Shown piece after piece: positions 54,827 through 63,551 of a DNA stretch of 64,000 nucleotides (the stretch's first letter is position 1; the number at the start of each line of letters is the position of its first letter). The notes below the pieces were generated by a model, which was not told the DNA's origin, searched no databases, and saw only the letters and a list, made by a program, of their open reading frames with translations. A program made the position numbers and the translations under genes. Origin of the DNA: Caballeronia concitans (lineage in GTDB: Bacteria; Pseudomonadota; Gammaproteobacteria; Burkholderiales; Burkholderiaceae). The stretch covers positions 62,001 through 126,000 of the forward strand of contig NZ_FCNV02000009.1 in NCBI RefSeq assembly GCF_001544615.1, in the 5' to 3' direction.

Positions 54827-54858
54827 AAAAGCCCCGAATTTCGGGGCTTTTTCTTTTA
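54827..54858. terminator. Bidirectional terminator between purB and gntK
   Basis: AGAAAAGCCCCGA, ATT, TCGGGGCTTTTTCT: an almost perfect 13-bp stem with T-runs on both strands, at the convergent ends of purB and gntK. Confidence 0.92.
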
Positions 54859-55350
54859 TCGCGTCTTCAGCTTCTCGATCACGTTATCGACGATCTGCTC
54901 CGGCGTCAGCTCGATGCTCTCCGTGATCGCCTCGTCTTCGCCCGGTTCTTCGAGCGTGTCGAGCTGGCTCTGCAGCAGCGACGGATCGAAGAAATGGCCG
55001 GTGCGATGCCCGAGGCGTTCGCGCAGCACGTCCATCGAGCCTTTGAGATAGACGAAGCACACGTCCTTGTCGCCGTCGCGCAGCACGTCGCGGTACGAGC
55101 GCTTCAGCGACGAACACGTGAACACGGCCGTTTCGCCCGCGCGCTGCTTTTCCTCGATGGCCGCGCGGATGGTTTTGAGCCACGGCCAGCGGTCCTCGTC
55201 CGTCAACGGAATGCCGTGATGCATCTTTTCCTTGTTGGCGGCACTGTGGAACGCGTCGCCGTCGGTGAACGGACAGTGCAGCCGCTCGGCCAGCAATTCG
55301 CCGATCAGCGATTTGCCCGCGCCCGATACGCCCATTGCGATCAGAATCAT
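54856..55350 (-). CDS. gntK: Gluconokinase
   Basis: 164 aa. The P-loop GVSGAGKS (7-14) and family motifs FTDGDAFHSAANKEKM and TDEDRWPWL identify GntK. It phosphorylates gluconate to 6-phosphogluconate, the substrate of Edd encoded at 61.7 kb. 10 bp after gntT, same operon. Confidence 0.96.
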   Translation of the reverse strand: MILIAMGVSGAGKSLIGELLAERLHCPFTDGDAFHSAANKEKMHHGIPLTDEDRWPWLKTIRAAIEEKQRAGETAVFTCSSLKRSYRDVLRDGDKDVCFVYLKGSMDVLRERLGHRTGHFFDPSLLQSQLDTLEEPGEDEAITESIELTPEQIVDNVIEKLKTR

Positions 55351-55360
55351 CGAAGTCTCC

Positions 55361-56725
55361 TTACAGAACCGCTGCGAGCACGAAGGTCAGGCCGAGGCCC
55401 ATCAGCGAAATGATCGTTTCGAGCAATGACCACGTCTTGAACGTCTGACCGACGGTCATCCCGAAGTACTCCTTGATCAGCCAGAAGCCGCCGTCGTTCA
55501 CGTGCGAGAAAATCAGCGAACCCGAACCGGTCGCGAGCACGAGCAATTCCGGCTTGATGTTGCCGCCGGCCGCGGCCGCGATCGGCGCGACGATACCGCA
55601 AGCGGTGGTCATCGCCACCGTGGCGGAACCGGTCGCAAGACGGATCAGCGCCGCGACGAACCAGCCGAGCAGCAGCGGCGACAGGCTCGCCTGCGTCGCG
55701 GTCGCGACGATCTGCTGCGAAATGCCGCTGTCGCGCAGCACCTGGCCGAAGCCGCCGCCCGCGCCGACGATCAGCGTGATCCCCGCGATCGGCGCAAGAC
55801 ACTCGCCGCAGAACTTCTGAATCTGATCGCGATTGAAGCCCTGCTTCGCGCCGAACGTCCAGAAACTGACGAGCACGGCGATCAACAGCGCCATATCCGA
55901 TTGACCGATGAAACGCAGCAGATCGTTCGGCAGCGTCTTCGGCGCGAAGACGAGATCGGCCCAGCTTCCGATGAGCATCAGAATGACCGGCAGCAGGATG
56001 GTGAACAGCGTGATGCCGAAGCCCGGCAGTTCACGGTTCTTTTGCGTATCGCCATGCTTTTGCACGAACTGCTCGGCGAGCGCGTTGGCGTCCGGCAGCT
56101 TGATGTACTTGTGGATCATCAGCGCGAAAAGCGGTCCGGCGACGATTGCCGTCGGAACGCCGACGATCAACCCGTACGCGATCGTCTTGCCGATATCCGC
56201 GTGATACGCCTGCACCGCGAGCAGCGCGGCCGGGTGCGGCGGAATCAGGCCGTGCACGACGGACAGGCCGGCGACCATCGGCAGGCCGATCAGCAAGAGC
56301 GATTTGCCCGTGCGGCGCGCGACGTTGAAGGCAATGGGAATCAGCAGCACGAAGCCGACTTCGAAGAACACCGGCAAGCCGACGATGATCGCGACGATCA
56401 TCATCGCCCAATGAATGTTCTTCTCGCCGAACAGATTGATCAGCGTATTGGCGATGCGCTCGGCACCGCCGGATTCGGCCATCATCTTGCCGAGCATCGT
56501 GCCCAAACCGACGACGACGGCAATGTGACCGAGCGTGTTGCCGTTGCCGGTTTCGAATGCCTTGACGATCTTGTCCATCGGCATGCCGACCGCGAGGCCG
56601 AGCAGGACAGACACGATCATCAGGACGAGGAACGGATAAACCTTGTAACGCGCGATCATCAGGATCAGAACTGCGATCGCGATCACCGCGTAGAGCAGCA
56701 GCATGCTCCCGTGGACGGCCGGCAT
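55361..56725 (-). CDS. gntT: GntP-family gluconate permease
   Basis: 454 aa, about 12-14 membrane helices. The ATG at 56725 has AAGGAGG four bases upstream. Conserved blocks GLSVVHGLIPPHPAALLA and GATVAMTTACGIV-type motif (ATGSATVAMTTACGI) place it in the GntP family of proton-gluconate symporters. With gntK it forms a two-gene uptake operon. A TTAC-TG-GTAA site at 56840 may be an operator. Confidence 0.93.
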   Translation of the reverse strand: MPAVHGSMLLLYAVIAIAVLILMIARYKVYPFLVLMIVSVLLGLAVGMPMDKIVKAFETGNGNTLGHIAVVVGLGTMLGKMMAESGGAERIANTLINLFGEKNIHWAMMIVAIIVGLPVFFEVGFVLLIPIAFNVARRTGKSLLLIGLPMVAGLSVVHGLIPPHPAALLAVQAYHADIGKTIAYGLIVGVPTAIVAGPLFALMIHKYIKLPDANALAEQFVQKHGDTQKNRELPGFGITLFTILLPVILMLIGSWADLVFAPKTLPNDLLRFIGQSDMALLIAVLVSFWTFGAKQGFNRDQIQKFCGECLAPIAGITLIVGAGGGFGQVLRDSGISQQIVATATQASLSPLLLGWFVAALIRLATGSATVAMTTACGIVAPIAAAAGGNIKPELLVLATGSGSLIFSHVNDGGFWLIKEYFGMTVGQTFKTWSLLETIISLMGLGLTFVLAAVL

Positions 56726-57004: not shown

Positions 57005-57286
57005 TTACGACGCGCACCTGAACGTGATCTCTCGCGGATTGCGATTTTGATCGCCTGGCGCGCCGTCGATCGCTTGCGCCGACACCACCTGACGTTCTTT
57101 GCAAACCTGAGCGGCGGCCGCCAAGCAGGACTTCTGCGATTCGAAGAGGCCCGAGCACGTCACGCGGTACGCATCCGGCTGGCCGGCGATACTCACCTTG
57201 CGGGATGTGTACGTCACGCCGGTATCGGTCGAGCACGCAGCGAGCAAAAGCACGAACGCGCCGACGGCACTGATTGATTTGAACAT
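57005..57286 (-). CDS. Small lipoprotein of unknown function
   Basis: 93 aa from the ATG at 57286. A lipoprotein signal peptide is clear: MFKSISAVGAFVLLLAACS, with a lipobox LAAC. The mature part has three further Cys and the motif RVTCSGLFESQKSCLAAAAQVC. Similar short lipoproteins are common in Burkholderiaceae. It lies immediately downstream of the remains of the adhesin gene but after its terminator, so it is expressed separately. Confidence 0.78.
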   Translation of the reverse strand: MFKSISAVGAFVLLLAACSTDTGVTYTSRKVSIAGQPDAYRVTCSGLFESQKSCLAAAAQVCKERQVVSAQAIDGAPGDQNRNPREITFRCAS

Positions 57287-57302: not shown

Positions 57303-57352
57303 AACAAAAAACGGACCGGGCGATCGCGGACATCTGCGACCGCCCGGTCCGT
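57303..57352 (-). terminator. Terminator after the adhesin remnant
   Basis: ACGGACCGGGCG and CGCCCGGTCCGT arms around an 18-base centre that itself pairs (GTCGCAG...), followed on the minus strand by TTTTTTGTTGC. It terminates the transcript that ends with the YadA-like anchor, showing this was once the 3' end of a real gene. Confidence 0.85.
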
Positions 57353-57401
57353 GAGCGTGAGCGTCAGCTCAGCTCCCCCTGGTCAGCTCAGCCCACCCTG
57401 C

Positions 57402-57818
57402 TTACCAGCGATACGACGCGTTCGCGCCATACACCGTGCCGTTGCGGCTCGTGCCCGCTCCGGCCTTCAGCACCAGGTTCTGCGTCACGCGCAGGTTCAC
57501 CGCGACCGCAGCGGCCGCATAGCCCTGATACGAGGCGCCGCCCACACCGACCGACATCGTCTTGTCCTGATCGATGTTCGGGACCATCGCCATGGCCGTC
57601 GCCGCCGCGATACCAGAGTAGGCATTGCGCGCGACACCGTTGACTGCGCCTTGCATCGCACCGACTTGCTGATCCGTGTAGCTGTTGGCCGACGATACCG
57701 CGTCGTTCAACTGGTTCACGTTGACCATGTCGGTGTCCTGCGTACCGGCCGCGACGTTGGTGATCTGACGTTCGCTGCCGGCCGCGCCCACGGAGACCGT
57801 CTGCGCACGATCCGACAC
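57402..57818 (-). pseudogene. Remnant of YadA-like trimeric autotransporter: last head motif and membrane anchor
   Basis: 138 codons, out of frame with the chimera above. Read from just upstream (about 57852) the frame gives [11 protein letters not shown], a YadA head repeat, then [30 protein letters not shown], a neck and stalk segment, and the YadA anchor that ends ANASYRW, an aromatic residue as beta-barrel proteins need. An intact anchor would trimerise in the outer membrane and export the passenger; here no signal peptide is attached, so no functional adhesin can be made. Followed by an intact terminator. Confidence 0.85.
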
Positions 57819-57849
57819 CGAGCCTGCGCCCAGCGCGACGGAGTTGTCG

Positions 57850-57966
57850 GCGTCTGGCCGTCGAGGTGGATGTCGACAACGAGCTGATACCGGTGGACAG
57901 CGAACTCGCGCCCGTGGACAGCGAGCTGATGCCGGTCGAGGTCGAAGTCGACAGCGAGCTCACGCC
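57850..57966 (-). repeat. Ser-Leu-Ser-Thr stalk repeats
   Basis: Four imperfect units of the form SSLSTG(A/I) or SSLSTSTST(A/G) encoded in a row; the DNA repeats the core AGCTCGCTGTC with small changes. These are the neck/stalk repeats of Burkholderia trimeric autotransporters. They also provide the sequence in which the fusion to the DUF2827 fragment happened. Confidence 0.75.
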
Positions 57967-58222
57967 GGTGGACACCGTGGGCCAGCGCTTCAGCTCCCAG
58001 GGCAACTGATCGGTGATCGGCACCGACGTCGTATTGACGAGCACCGTGCTCGCCACGTTTGGACACCGATTCAGTGCTTCGGCAAGAAAAACCGCGTTTT
58101 GCTTGATGCCATTATTCCAGAGCGTTTCGGCGGCATGATGCAGGCCGATGGTGATCCCTACACGCAGCTTCTTCATCGCCCCGCACTCCGTTGTTCCGTT
58201 TGAGTCAATTCATTCATGTTGG

Positions 58223-59374
58223 TCATGTCCTCGCGCAGACGGCCTCGAGCGCTTCGGTATAAACGCGGACGTTGTCCTCGTTCTCAGGATCGAGTTTTCG
58301 GATGAGCGCATTCGCCTTCGCGCGATAGCTGTCGAGATTCGCGTCGTGCGTCTCGAAGGCACGGCGCAGCGCGCGCCCGCCCTCTTCGCAATCGAAATCG
58401 TGATAGCGATATCCGCAGTCGCCAATCAAATGCGAATTGTGTATCAGCGGATATCCGCCATGAAGCGCTTCGTAGTACACATAATTCTGCGCGTTCTCCC
58501 ACTGGTGACTGACAACCGCATCCACCGAAGCCGGAACGATTTGCGCAAACGGATAACGTCCCTCGAAGAAGCCCATGCCGTGCTTGACGATATCCAGACT
58601 TTGCGCGAAGCCCACGAACGCCGGATGCTCTTTCAGCTTGTTGGTGTTATAAGCCCACATGCGTTCGATCATGTCCGGATTCTCGCGATGCGCCATTTCG
58701 CAGCAAAGCATCGGGATATAACTGGTCTTGACCATGCAGACATTCGGCTCGAACAGGCCGATACGCCAGCGCCGGCGGCCCGGCTGATAGCCGAACTTCT
58801 GCCCTTCGGGCAGTTTCGCGGCTTCGCGCTCGAGCACGACGGGGCTCCACAAATGCGGCATCAGCTTGACGGGCGCGCGAAACAGCGTCTCGAAGTACGG
58901 TTTGCAACTGCTTTCGTATTCGGGCAGCGTCCAGACTTCATCGTAGGGCGCACCTGAAATCAACAACGCGTGTTGCAAATTGAAAACCATACGTTCGATG
59001 TCGATCACATAATCGTTACCCACGCGCATCGTGATTATCTTGCCGCCGCGCTCGCGGAACTTCACCGCCCATTCGCGGCCGAGCTGCGCGCTCATTTCGA
59101 TCATCACATCGAGTCTCGACATGGCGGTTTCCATGTCGATCAACGGAACGGGCGAATCCGACAGAAAGCGCTTCGCGTCCTCGGGGCCGCCATCGCCGCC
59201 GCCCGTCACGAGGTACGTCGACTTCACGCGCGGTGAACGCAGCAGCAGCATCACGAGGTAAAGGCAGTTCTGAAAAATGCCGTTTTCCCAAAGCGATTGC
59301 TCGCCCTTTCGGATAAAGATCGAGACGCCGACATTGAGCCGCTCGGGCATGCGGGATTGAGTGTGCTTGTTCAT
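58223..59374 (-). CDS. DUF2827 family protein, copy 2
   Basis: 383 aa. It shares with its neighbour a Rossmann-like start (LNVGVSIFIRKGEQSLWENGIFQN) and, near residue 305-315, the motif HGGYPLIHNSH, then the acidic stretch DFDCEEGGRAL. The second motif recalls the donor-sugar binding region of GT-B glycosyltransferases; this is inference, since no activity has been shown for DUF2827 that I know of. The start overlaps the previous gene by 4 bp. GC content looks lower than in the flanking core genes. Confidence 0.82.
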   Translation of the reverse strand: MNKHTQSRMPERLNVGVSIFIRKGEQSLWENGIFQNCLYLVMLLLRSPRVKSTYLVTGGGDGGPEDAKRFLSDSPVPLIDMETAMSRLDVMIEMSAQLGREWAVKFRERGGKIITMRVGNDYVIDIERMVFNLQHALLISGAPYDEVWTLPEYESSCKPYFETLFRAPVKLMPHLWSPVVLEREAAKLPEGQKFGYQPGRRRWRIGLFEPNVCMVKTSYIPMLCCEMAHRENPDMIERMWAYNTNKLKEHPAFVGFAQSLDIVKHGMGFFEGRYPFAQIVPASVDAVVSHQWENAQNYVYYEALHGGYPLIHNSHLIGDCGYRYHDFDCEEGGRALRRAFETHDANLDSYRAKANALIRKLDPENEDNVRVYTEALEAVCART

Positions 59375-60531
59375 ACGCGGAGCTTCGCCTCGTTGTGCTT
59401 GAACAGGTTCAGCAACCGGTCGGCGAATGCGTCGAGGTTGGCCTGATTGAAAGGATTAACCGCGTCGATGACCCGCTGCGCCCGCGCGCGATAATCCGCC
59501 AGGGATGAATCGTGCTCACGCGCCGCCACCAGCAATTGACGTCCGCCTTCTTGCGCGTCGAAACCCGGATAGTAGTAACCGGCGTCGCGCATCCACGGCG
59601 AGTTATGAATCAACGGATAACCGCCATACAAAACGTCGAGATACAAATAGTTTTGGTCGTTTCCCCATTGATGCGAAACGACGGCATCGGAGAACTGTGC
59701 CATGAAACCGGCAATATCGTTGCGCCCGTGAAATATCGCCTTGCCCGCTTTCACGATATCGAGCGAATTCGCCAGGTGATTCAGCGTCGGGTGATCCTTC
59801 ATGTGCAGCGTGTTGAGCGCATGCATTGCAGACACACTGCATTGATCGGCGCGATATGCCTCTTCGCAAATCAGCATCGGAATGCTGGAGGTTTTGACGA
59901 CGGAGATATTCGGCTCGAAAATAGCCACGCGAAAACCCTGCGGCTTTTGTTCCGGCGCCATCGATGCATCGCTTCGCGGCTGATAGCCGTATTGCAAGCC
60001 ATGCTCGTTCACTTCAGCGATGCGTTGTTCGAGAAACTGCGGATGCCAGATAAACGGAATCAGATGCACGTCGCAACGGTGAAGGCTGCGCATCAACGGA
60101 ACGGAAAGACGGTCTTTCGGCATCAGCCAGATTTCGTCGTAACGATCCGGCCGCATGACATGCACCGGTTTCTCGAATATCGGCGCCTCGATAAGCCCGA
60201 CATAAGGCTGGCCGCAGCAGTAATAGACCACTTTCTTGCCGCGGGCGCGCATGAGGTCGAGCCATTGCGTATCCAGCGCGCCGCCCATTTCGAACACGAC
60301 GTCCACCGCGTCGGCGGCATCTTTCGTGCGCATGATGCGCAGGCCCTTGGCGTTCATATCGACTTGCGGCGGCAGGACGTGCTGGTCACCGACGTCGATA
60401 AGCGAAATCGATTCGACGAAAGGCAGCTTTTGCAACGCCTCAGCGAAAAAAATCACATTCTGGCCGAGTCCGTTCTGCCAGATGTTCTGCCCTTCATGGG
60501 TAACGATTGAGATCCCGATTCGAATAGTCAC
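59371..60531 (-). CDS. DUF2827 family protein, copy 1
   Basis: 386 aa from a GTG at 60531. It starts TIRIGISIVTHEGQNIWQNGLGQN and contains YYCCGQPYVG (about 103-112) and YGGYPLIHNSPW (about 308-319). It is the first gene of the three-copy array and is followed without gap by copy 2 (ATGA overlap). The DNA is visibly more AT-rich than its surroundings, suggesting acquisition. Role unknown; coexistence with an adhesin suggests modification or assembly of that adhesin. Confidence 0.82.
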   Translation of the reverse strand: MTIRIGISIVTHEGQNIWQNGLGQNVIFFAEALQKLPFVESISLIDVGDQHVLPPQVDMNAKGLRIMRTKDAADAVDVVFEMGGALDTQWLDLMRARGKKVVYYCCGQPYVGLIEAPIFEKPVHVMRPDRYDEIWLMPKDRLSVPLMRSLHRCDVHLIPFIWHPQFLEQRIAEVNEHGLQYGYQPRSDASMAPEQKPQGFRVAIFEPNISVVKTSSIPMLICEEAYRADQCSVSAMHALNTLHMKDHPTLNHLANSLDIVKAGKAIFHGRNDIAGFMAQFSDAVVSHQWGNDQNYLYLDVLYGGYPLIHNSPWMRDAGYYYPGFDAQEGGRQLLVAAREHDSSLADYRARAQRVIDAVNPFNQANLDAFADRLLNLFKHNEAKLRV

Positions 60532-60939: not shown

Positions 60940-61572
60940 TTACTTGAGCTGCGCCAGTTCGCTTGCAGCGCGTGCGAGCCGCGTGACTTCTTCCCAGTTC
61001 TGCGCGGTCAGCGCGGCCTTCGGCGTCAACCACGAACCGCCGACGCACACCACGTTCGGCTGCGCCAGAAAATTCGATGCCGTCTCGGCCGTGATGCCGC
61101 CGGTCGGACAGAACTTGAGGTTCGGAAACGGACCGTAGAAAGCCTGAAGCATCGGAATGCCGCCCGCCTGTTGCGCCGGGAAGAACTTGACGATCTCATA
61201 GCCGAGTTCTAGCGCGTTGATGATGTCGCTCGGCGTCATCACGCCCGGCAACAGCGGAAGTCCGGCGTCCTGCGCGGCCTTGTGCATGTCCTTCGTGAGA
61301 CCCGGCGACACGCCGAACTGGGCGCCCGCCTTCTTCGCCTGCTCGCAGTGCTCGGGCTTCGTGATGGTGCCGACGCCCACCACGATGTCTTCCGCAAGCT
61401 GACTCGCCCGCTCTATGGCCGCGATCCCGGCCGCCGTGCGCAGCGTGATTTCCAGCACCTTCACGCCGCCGGCGTGCAGCGCGCGCGATACGTGTTCGCC
61501 CTGCTCCACCGAATCGAAAGCCAGGACCGGGATCACCGGTCCGAGACGCACGATTTCGCTTACTGTTTTCAT
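60940..61572 (-). CDS. eda: KDPG aldolase (2-dehydro-3-deoxy-phosphogluconate aldolase)
   Basis: 210 aa from the ATG at 61572. The class I aldolase motifs are present: VLEITLRT (catalytic Glu), GAQFGVSPG and the Schiff-base Lys in YEIVKFFPAQQ, then CPTGGI. It splits KDPG to pyruvate and glyceraldehyde-3-phosphate. 86 bp after edd; the two complete the Entner-Doudoroff pathway. Confidence 0.96.
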   Translation of the reverse strand: MKTVSEIVRLGPVIPVLAFDSVEQGEHVSRALHAGGVKVLEITLRTAAGIAAIERASQLAEDIVVGVGTITKPEHCEQAKKAGAQFGVSPGLTKDMHKAAQDAGLPLLPGVMTPSDIINALELGYEIVKFFPAQQAGGIPMLQAFYGPFPNLKFCPTGGITAETASNFLAQPNVVCVGGSWLTPKAALTAQNWEEVTRLARAASELAQLK

Positions 61573-61658
61573 TTGATGCGACTCCTGTTTTTTGTGCGGC
61601 GACTTCGCGTCGGTCCGCGGGTTCGTGTCAGGTTCGACCGCTCGTGTCCGTCTCGGCT

Positions 61659-63551
61659 TCACGCCGATGCATGCGCGTGCGAGGCATCGCGTGCGGCGTG
61701 GCGATCGTGGGCTGCCGCCGCGCCGATCATCGCACCGAACACGGACGCGCCCTGTTCCGCCGGCAATGCCGCGCTACGGAACACGCCGAACAGTTCGCGC
61801 CCGAAGCCCGCTTCGTTGTCCGCCTGATTCGCCGGCGCTTGCACTTCGCGGGACGCCCATTCCTTCGCGTCGATGTCGATATCGAGCACGCCCGCCGGCG
61901 CGTCGATCACGAGCATGTCGCCCGTGCGCACCTTGCCGAGCGGCCCTTGCAGCAGCGCTTCGGGCGAAACGTGAATGACCGCCGGCACCTTGCCGGACGC
62001 GCCGGACATGCGGCCATCGGTCACGAGCGCGACGTGAAAGCCCTGATCCTGCAACACGCCGAGAAGCGGCGTCAACCGATGCAGCTCCGGCATCCCGTTC
62101 GCGCGCGCGCCCTGAAAGCGCACGACCGCGACGAAATCGCGCTTCAGCTCGCCCTTGTCGAACGCTTCCTGCACTTCTTCCTGCGAATTGAACACGATGG
62201 CCGGCGCCTTCACCACGCGATGCTCCGGCGCGACCGCCGAAATCTTGATGACGCCGCGCCCGAGCTTGCCCTGCATCAGACGCAGGCCGCCGTCCGGCTG
62301 GAACGGCTCGCGAATGCCGCGCAGCACCTTCGTGTCGTGACTTTCGGCGGCGCCGTCGACCCACTGCAGCTTGCCGTCGATGAGCTTCGGCTCCTTCGTG
62401 TAGTGCGACAGCCCGCGACCGGCGACCGTCTGCACGTCCTCGTGCAGCAAGCCGCCTTCCAGCAGATTGCGCACGAGGAACGCGACGCCGCCCGCCGCGT
62501 GAAAATGGTTCACGTCGGCCTTGCCGTTCGGATAGATCTTCGCGAGCAGCGGCACGACTTGCGACAGCTCGTCGAAATCGTTCCAGTCGATGACGATGCC
62601 CGCCGCGCGCGCGATCGCCACCAGATGCAGCGTGTGATTGGTCGATCCGCCCGTCGCGAGCAGCGCGACGATGCCGTTCACGATCGCCTTTTCATCGACG
62701 ATATGGCCGATCGGCGTGTAATTGCCGCGCTCGACGGTGATGTCGAGCACGCGGCGCGCGGCTTCGGCGGTGAGCGCATCGCGCAGCGGCGTGTGCGGAT
62801 GCACGAAGGCCGCGCTCGGTAGATGCAGGCCCATCACTTCCATCAGCATTTGATTGCTGTTCGCGGTGCCGTAGAACGTGCAGGTGCCGTGGCCGTGATA
62901 TGCGGCGGCTTCGGCTTCGAGCAGCGCGCCGCGATCGCACTTGCCCGTCGCGAATTCCTGGCGGACCTTGGCTTTTTCGTCGTTGGTGAGGCCGCTCGTC
63001 ATCGGGCCGGCCGGGACGAAGATGGTCGGCAGATGCCCGAATTGCAGCGCGCCGATGGCGAGTCCCGGCACGATCTTGTCGCAGACGCCGAGACACAATG
63101 CCGCGTCGAACATGTTGTGCGTGAGCGCGACGGCCGTGCTCATCGCGATGACCTCGCGCGAGAACAGCGACAGCTCCATGCCCGCGTTGCCCTGCGTGAT
63201 GCCGTCGCACATGGCCGGCACGCCGCCCGCGAATTGCGCGACGCCGCCGTGTTCGCGCGCCGCCTGCTTGATGATGTCCGGGAAGCTCTTGTACGGTGCG
63301 TGCGCCGAAAGCATTTCGTTATACGACGACACAATGCCGATGTTCGGCTCGCGCACCGCCTTGATCGCGAACTTCTCCTGGCCTTCGAGACCGGCGAAGC
63401 CATGCGCGAGGTTCGCGCACGAAAGCGCGCCGCGGGCCGGGAATTTGTCGTGCGCGGCATCGATGCGCGCCAGATAAGCCGCGCGCGTCGGCTTGCTGCG
63501 TTCGATCACGCGGTCGGTGACCTTCTTCAAATGCGAATGCGGGGAAACCAT
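61659..63551 (-). CDS. edd: 6-phosphogluconate dehydratase
   Basis: 630 aa with AAGGAG five bases before the ATG. IlvD/Edd-family motifs include [22 protein letters not shown] and [14 protein letters not shown]; the cysteines C164-like and others hold the 4Fe-4S cluster. It dehydrates 6-phosphogluconate to KDPG. It heads edd-eda and is divergent from hexR, with two probable HexR operators in the 295-bp spacer. Confidence 0.96.

Follow-up and report, generated by a model that had tools for sequence, protein, structure and literature searches.

We consider it quite probable that the window, a 64,000-nucleotide stretch of Caballeronia concitans DNA (positions 62001-126000 of contig C20 in genome G000), carries an adhesin locus ruined by at least two deletions, and that the DUF2827 proteins encoded beside the remains are GT-B glycosyltransferases dedicated to an adhesin with an SLST-repeat stalk. 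The draft genome comprises 47 contigs and 6.17 Mb, with a completeness rating of 99.97%. On the minus strand, the genes run in the order edd, KDPG aldolase, DUF2827-1, DUF2827-2, a chimeric frame, a small lipoprotein-like gene, gntP, and a gluconate-kinase-like gene, with the following features:

61659-63551, minus strand: edd (PF00920), in the upstream syntenic frame (60940..63551)
60940-61662, minus strand: KDPG aldolase (PF01081), in the same upstream frame
59371..60531, minus strand: DUF2827 gene 1, intact, 386 aa (PF10933, 433 bits)
58223..59374, minus strand: DUF2827 gene 2, intact, 383 aa, a predicted GT-B glycosyltransferase (PF10933, 472 bits)
57388..58176, minus strand: chimeric ORF of 262 aa, the scar of at least two deletions (ORF list, Pfam, and genus-wide search)
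57973..58176, minus strand: 5' 68 codons of DUF2827 gene 3 (PF10933, 59 bits; gene 3 matches in 18 other genomes)
57970..57976, minus strand: junction 1, from DUF2827 gene 3 to the adhesin stalk (15 relatives compared; 2-3 bp shared)
57856..57972, minus strand: SLST stalk remnant of 39 codons that continues the reading frame of the DUF2827 part
57846..57856, minus strand: junction 2, from stalk to neck, with a change of frame (210-240 codons absent relative to most comparable relatives)
57402..57851, minus strand: adhesin neck and YadA anchor in another frame with its own stop (PF03895, 56 bits; PF05662, 39 bits)
57311..57352, minus strand: probable intrinsic terminator that served the lost adhesin gene, with a 17-pair stem and then a run of T
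57005..57286, minus strand: small lipoprotein-like gene, which sits after the adhesin in relatives
55361-56725, minus strand: gntP (PF02447), in the downstream syntenic frame (54856..56725)
54856-55350, minus strand: gluconate-kinase-like gene, in the same downstream frame; we take it to be a gluconate kinase, and its Pfam match is SKI/AAA

The Pfam family DUF2827 (PF10933), whose description gives no function, covers genes 1 and 2 and the 5' part of gene 3. Genes 1 and 2 match it over its full length (positions 1-362 of 362, cut-off 25 bits), while gene 3 covers just positions 1-66 of 362 and is a fragment. The chimera is present as the preliminary description had it: a DUF2827 N-terminus (59 bits, E 4e-16, residues 6-70) runs in frame into SLST repeats, read there as S-S-L-S-T. 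This N-terminal part is 68-88% identical to DUF2827 gene 3 in 18 further genomes of the genus, and the stalk part, among the matches listed, is 73-92% identical to genus adhesins, starting at residue 67-69. The frame at 57402-57818 holds a complete YadA_anchor domain (PF03895, positions 1-60 of 60) and a YadA_stalk domain (PF05662), and its anchor resembles genus adhesins with up to 87% identity. Since both the N-terminal part and the anchor match relatives, chance is excluded.

When the first 106 residues of the chimera were searched against 58 genomes of the genus, the third DUF2827 gene of the 18 other genomes aligned until residue 67-72 and paralogous DUF2827 genes only until about residue 52. 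Among the matches listed, residues 1-106 were spanned solely by the window's own sequence; the list leaves out weaker matches, but a spanning match would top the ranking. These results agree with the earlier view of the fusion as a scar and not a conserved gene.

The chimera carries neither the ESPR signal peptide nor the head, and its anchor is out of frame, so the adhesin of the window is a remnant. More than half of the 262 codons come from the anchor, translated in the wrong frame. Without the adhesin's extended signal peptide the chimera should not reach the surface, which makes it most likely a dead remnant. A search of the rest of the assembly did not recover the 3' part of DUF2827 gene 3, and a probe of the adhesin N-terminus, used without a positive control, had no match there. 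The only other YadA anchor found in G000 lies in a 540-codon frame with no LST and 20% Ser+Thr. A site resembling the terminator said to follow the anchor lies 3' of its stop, being the one such site found where shuffles of the region give a mean of 0.8.

The junctions differ from their first reading. The leading part of the chimera is N-terminal DUF2827, but in the alignment of 15 relatives it stops at residue 67-68 and not after 70 codons. The relatives read R-W-P-T-V-T-F, or near it, where the window has R-W-P-T-V-S-T-G: residue 68 is V in 14 of the 15, residue 69 is T in 13 and S in one, and residue 70 is F in all of them, which contradicts a V-S-T-G that fits both partners. The two sides of junction 1 share 2-3 bp; this is near chance, and we therefore reject the proposed recombination at a microhomology as its cause. 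The junctions of G048 and G040 likewise have short overlaps by eye, too short to weigh.

The frame does change near 57856, where a one-base shift had been assumed. However, the stalk abuts the neck (A-D-N-S-V-A-L-G) at this point, and a simple frameshift was set aside because 210-240 codons between stalk and neck are missing, which makes this a second deletion junction. Six relatives carry the A-D-N-S-V-A-L-G neck, and in five of them the distance from the neck to a K-Y-F-H-A-N region is 211-214 residues, with a further 25-30 residues or so preceding that region. In the sixth, G007, the frame itself is broken upstream of the neck, and the shorter adhesin of G015 has neither the neck nor the stalk-neck region. 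The window retains nothing of this region.

To follow the locus within the genus, 22 loci were mapped (20 chosen relatives, the window, and L143 of G047), and their states were read from the maps. The pair of gntP and the gluconate-kinase-like gene has an identical order in Caballeronia relatives, and DUF2827 gene 1 is 78-84% identical to its counterparts in 18 of 20 Caballeronia loci, with lower values in G034 and G045. A counterpart of the lipoprotein-like gene (42-72% identity) lies 3' of the anchor in 10 of 12 anchor-bearing Caballeronia loci. The intact order in relatives is DUF2827-DUF2827-DUF2827-trimeric autotransporter adhesin, which upholds the claim that a deletion joined the third DUF2827 gene to a neighbouring YadA-like adhesin. 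Four of the 22 loci (G006, G009, G015, and G052) have three DUF2827 genes and one open adhesin frame that includes the M-N-K-S-Y start and runs out in the anchor. Relatives with the intact order have adhesin frames of 3294, 3647, 554, and 481 aa, the 554-aa one with ESPR, head, stalk, and anchor; ESPR, head, and a continuous frame are present in G052. In another four loci (G012, G017, G022, and G041) the contig stops inside the adhesin.

The locus is broken in the other 14 (G000, G002 in gene 3, G004, G007, G034, G037, G038, G039, G040, G045, G047, G048, G049, and G057), a count that is an upper bound because drafts may misread repeats. For example, G048 (L136 4765-5169, in coordinates that put DUF2827-1 on the plus strand) has an in-frame fusion of 134 aa in which 59 codons from the start of DUF2827-2 lead into the YadA anchor; G040 has lost the stalk, and its anchor is shifted out of frame; G039 joins DUF2827-2 to the 3' end of DUF2827-3 and has an IS66 element in the adhesin; in G037 an IS66 element lies within the stalk; and in G049 the anchor and the lipoprotein-like gene are lost. 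Since the break points differ, the chimera is, as judged from sequence comparison, most likely one among several independent collapses of the locus. A tree of DUF2827-1 was rooted at the midpoint and has only 3 strongly supported inner branches out of 18. In it the window pairs weakly with G002 (85/82) and stands apart from G038, G039, G040, G048, and G049 (98/94). A single origin of the scars was rejected, as these five are separate from the window in the tree and all differ in their breaks. The scar itself is ordinary gene decay.

What the preliminary description missed is that the link between DUF2827 and adhesins is general and, together with a predicted fold, points to a function. A scan of the genome collection with DUF2827-2 gave 184 relatives, and in the best 80 of these loci, which are related to each other, a YadA anchor was found in 61 with an anchor profile built here. 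The anchor is upstream on the same strand in 52 loci, downstream in 4 (Caballeronia loci), and on the other strand in 5; in 47 of the 61 it lies within 600 bp of DUF2827. From 203 Pfam anchor matches in 300.4 Mb (47 of these genomes), about 0.8 anchors would be expected by chance in 1.18 Mb, with the background taken from the Pfam profile and the linkage from our own. The anchor-positive genera include Paraburkholderia, Variovorax, Snodgrassella, Comamonas, Sphingomonas, and Novosphingobium, and a Caulobacteraceae bacterium is also among them. In nine of the 19 anchor-less loci a long LST-rich ORF is cut by the end of the examined stretch, and ten of the 80 loci have neither an anchor nor an LST-rich ORF (L015, L037, L057, L058, L059, L067, L068, L070, L073, and L078). 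Within Sphingomonadales, DUF2827 occurs in 1 of 147 genomes, that one being the seed; the order is uninformative on linkage.

A second DUF2827 locus is found in six Caballeronia species (L137-L142) and on contig 14 of G000 (L145). Its two DUF2827 genes share 62-66% identity with those in the window, and G000 has a single copy. No anchor was found in any of its 7 stretches, nor an LST-rich ORF in the 5 examined, and DUF2827 may thus also serve a distant or a different target.

The association extends to the stalk motif. We took every third of about 150 listed anchor matches (of 203), giving 50 adhesins, of which 48 had more than 300 residues; the two short ones, L171 and L176, were dropped. With a threshold of at least 2 LST per 100 aa, set by the analyst, and DUF2827 scored within the fetched stretch, 13 of 14 adhesins with DUF2827 were LST-rich as compared to 2 of 34 without it (Fisher p 7e-9). 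The medians with and without DUF2827 were 4.7 and 0 for LST and 0.44 and 0.22 for Ser+Thr (p 9e-8 and 2e-7). The rows behind these values are not independent, because the genomes were reached via DUF2827, the sample overlaps with the 80-locus set, and L187, L201, and L206 are one contig. One exception, L187, has DUF2827 5 kb off and an LST density of 1.7; two others, L172 and L180, are SLST-rich with no DUF2827 nearby, one of them being cut by a contig end. L196, L201, and L204, which are without DUF2827, have LST values of 1.8-1.9, just below the threshold.

The predicted DUF2827 model (pLDDT 89.6, pTM 0.88) has two Rossmann-like domains, and its fold match along the whole chain would place the family in the GT-B superfamily. 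The 50 VIA and 50 Foldseek rows listed are all glycosyltransferases, sugar synthases, or pseudo-glycosyltransferases by title, from families that we take to be GT-B, and they include SdgB, an O-GlcNAc transferase, and SPY; the TM-scores from Foldseek, at 0.35-0.60 on the query, are middling. When DUF2827 was compared with GT4-like profiles in hhalign, the probabilities were 0.8% and 0.4%, less than the 3.3% of an unrelated control, and the DUF2827 profile had no match among PDB sequences. No significant glycosyltransferase signal was seen at the sequence level with GT4-like profiles, the PDB sequence search, or NCBIfam. Across 55 DUF2827 sequences there are 42 invariant columns, many of them probably in the C-terminal half.

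From the linkage, the motif association, and the predicted fold we infer a reaction, with its donor, acceptor, and order. The ancestral locus, flanked by edd/KDPG aldolase and gntP, held three DUF2827 genes, one SLST-stalk adhesin, and the small lipoprotein-like gene. The deletion at junction 1 took the 3' part of DUF2827 gene 3 with the signal peptide, head, and most of the stalk of the adhesin, and that at junction 2 the region between stalk and neck; together they left the in-frame DUF2827-stalk chimera and the out-of-frame anchor that the comparison displays. The DUF2827 enzymes would move sugars from nucleotide sugars onto serines and threonines of the SLST repeats while the adhesin is still in the cytoplasm, prior to its export, with one enzyme initiating the glycan and its paralogues elongating it. 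We think it fairly probable that DUF2827 constitutes a new family of glycosyltransferases whose members O-glycosylate SLST stalks on the trimeric autotransporter adhesins of Beta- and Alphaproteobacteria, acting stepwise through 2-3 paralogues as a Gram-negative counterpart of SdgA/SdgB and the serine-rich-repeat systems, and that the window's locus is being lost.

Several other explanations were weighed. The scar may be real while DUF2827 makes a non-adhesin glycan, such as a surface polysaccharide, and is linked to adhesins only as a co-inherited surface module. The nearest folds include small-molecule and polysaccharide enzymes (BshA, HepE, and PimA), and the second Caballeronia locus has DUF2827 genes with no adhesin nearby; however, the link is limited to the SLST-rich type of stalk within the same genomes (13/14 vs 2/34), which would be unexpected for a general surface glycan, and we regard this explanation as unlikely. 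It is less likely still that DUF2827 proteins are catalytically dead GT-B proteins that chaperone SLST stalks or assist in their assembly. Pseudo-glycosyltransferases such as VldE are known in this fold, and other adhesin glycosylation systems have inactive partners of active enzymes, but many of the 42 columns invariant over 55 sequences would fall in the C-terminal half, where GT-B enzymes bind the donor.

Two further explanations concern the chimera alone. The contigs of several relatives terminate within the adhesin, so the SLST repeats trouble assembly, and the chimeric ORF might be an artefact of this kind. We consider that very improbable, since at junction 1 unique DUF2827 sequence meets a repeat, a join that collapsed repeats by themselves do not create, the lost 3' part of gene 3 was not found in a 99.97% complete assembly, and other breaks occur in species with fewer than 10 contigs (G034, G037, G038, G039, G047, and G049). 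That the chimera works as a new gene, for instance as an in-frame remnant whose DUF2827 part is still of use, is scarcely credible: it is open over 262 codons, and G048 has its own in-frame fusion of 134 aa, but more than half of the chimera is wrong-frame anchor, no other match listed from the 58 genomes spans both parts, and neither fusion starts with the ESPR signal of the intact adhesin.

The reading of DUF2827 as a glycosyltransferase of SLST adhesins can be set beside known systems. The protein NGT modifies autotransporter adhesins. Both NGT and, by proposal, DUF2827 are cytoplasmic glycosyltransferases, and NGT is N-linked and belongs to a different family; NGT of Actinobacillus is a cytoplasmic N-glycosyltransferase in the passages available (PMC5303269). 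SdgA/SdgB of Staphylococcus aureus act on Gram-positive wall-anchored adhesins with Ser-Asp repeats, and their activity is shown in the passages available from that study (PMC8561734). DUF2827 shares with them a predicted fold only, with no PDB sequence match to its profile, and a devotion to a Ser-rich repeat adhesin that is seen here as a genetic link (61/80 loci; 13/14 vs 2/34). BCAM2418 (PMC7142374) and BoaA/BoaB (PMC2955633) are described, in the passages available, as YadA-like adhesins with SLST repeats, like those of the window's locus, and O-glycosylation of the Ser/Thr-rich repeats has already been proposed (PMC7142374). Those passages name no enzyme, and the link to DUF2827 is added here. 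In the available part of the only paper found to use the name, DUF2827 is tabulated under 'uronic acid pathway' (PMC12828279). Across the titles, abstract openings, and passages searched on DUF2827, trimeric autotransporters, and SLST adhesins, there was no tie between DUF2827 and adhesins, nor did a link of DUF2827, seen as a GT-B family, to SLST-stalk adhesins appear in them.

If the glycosyltransferase reading is true, DUF2827-1, DUF2827-2, and the contig 14 copy are partnerless in G000 and should decay next. DUF2827, by name just a domain of unknown function, would gain a testable function, and the glycosylation that others have suspected on SLST adhesins would gain a candidate enzyme with a predicted acceptor motif. 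The differing breaks across Caballeronia offer a natural comparison of intact, partly broken, and lost loci.

Some further observations were made. The lipoprotein-like gene, which had no match in the Pfam search, also trails these adhesins away from gntP (L148-L151, about 30% identity) and may be an assembly partner of the adhesin. Because IS66-type elements lie inside the adhesin genes of two species (L128 and L135), the SLST repeats may be insertion targets for them. Against the functional reading, G054 has SLST stalk matches with no full DUF2827 gene, and G056 has weak matches, their place not listed but probably in the stalk, with no DUF2827 match and a contig that ends in the adhesin. In favour of it are glycosyltransferase matches among 20 hand-picked ORFs downstream of DUF2827: 13 were other or unmatched, one matched Glyco_transf_34, four had TPR with no Glyco_transf_9 match (L027, L076, L079, and L082), and two had TPR with Glyco_transf_9, directly 3' of DUF2827 pairs (L066 9207-11105 and L074 9174-11111).
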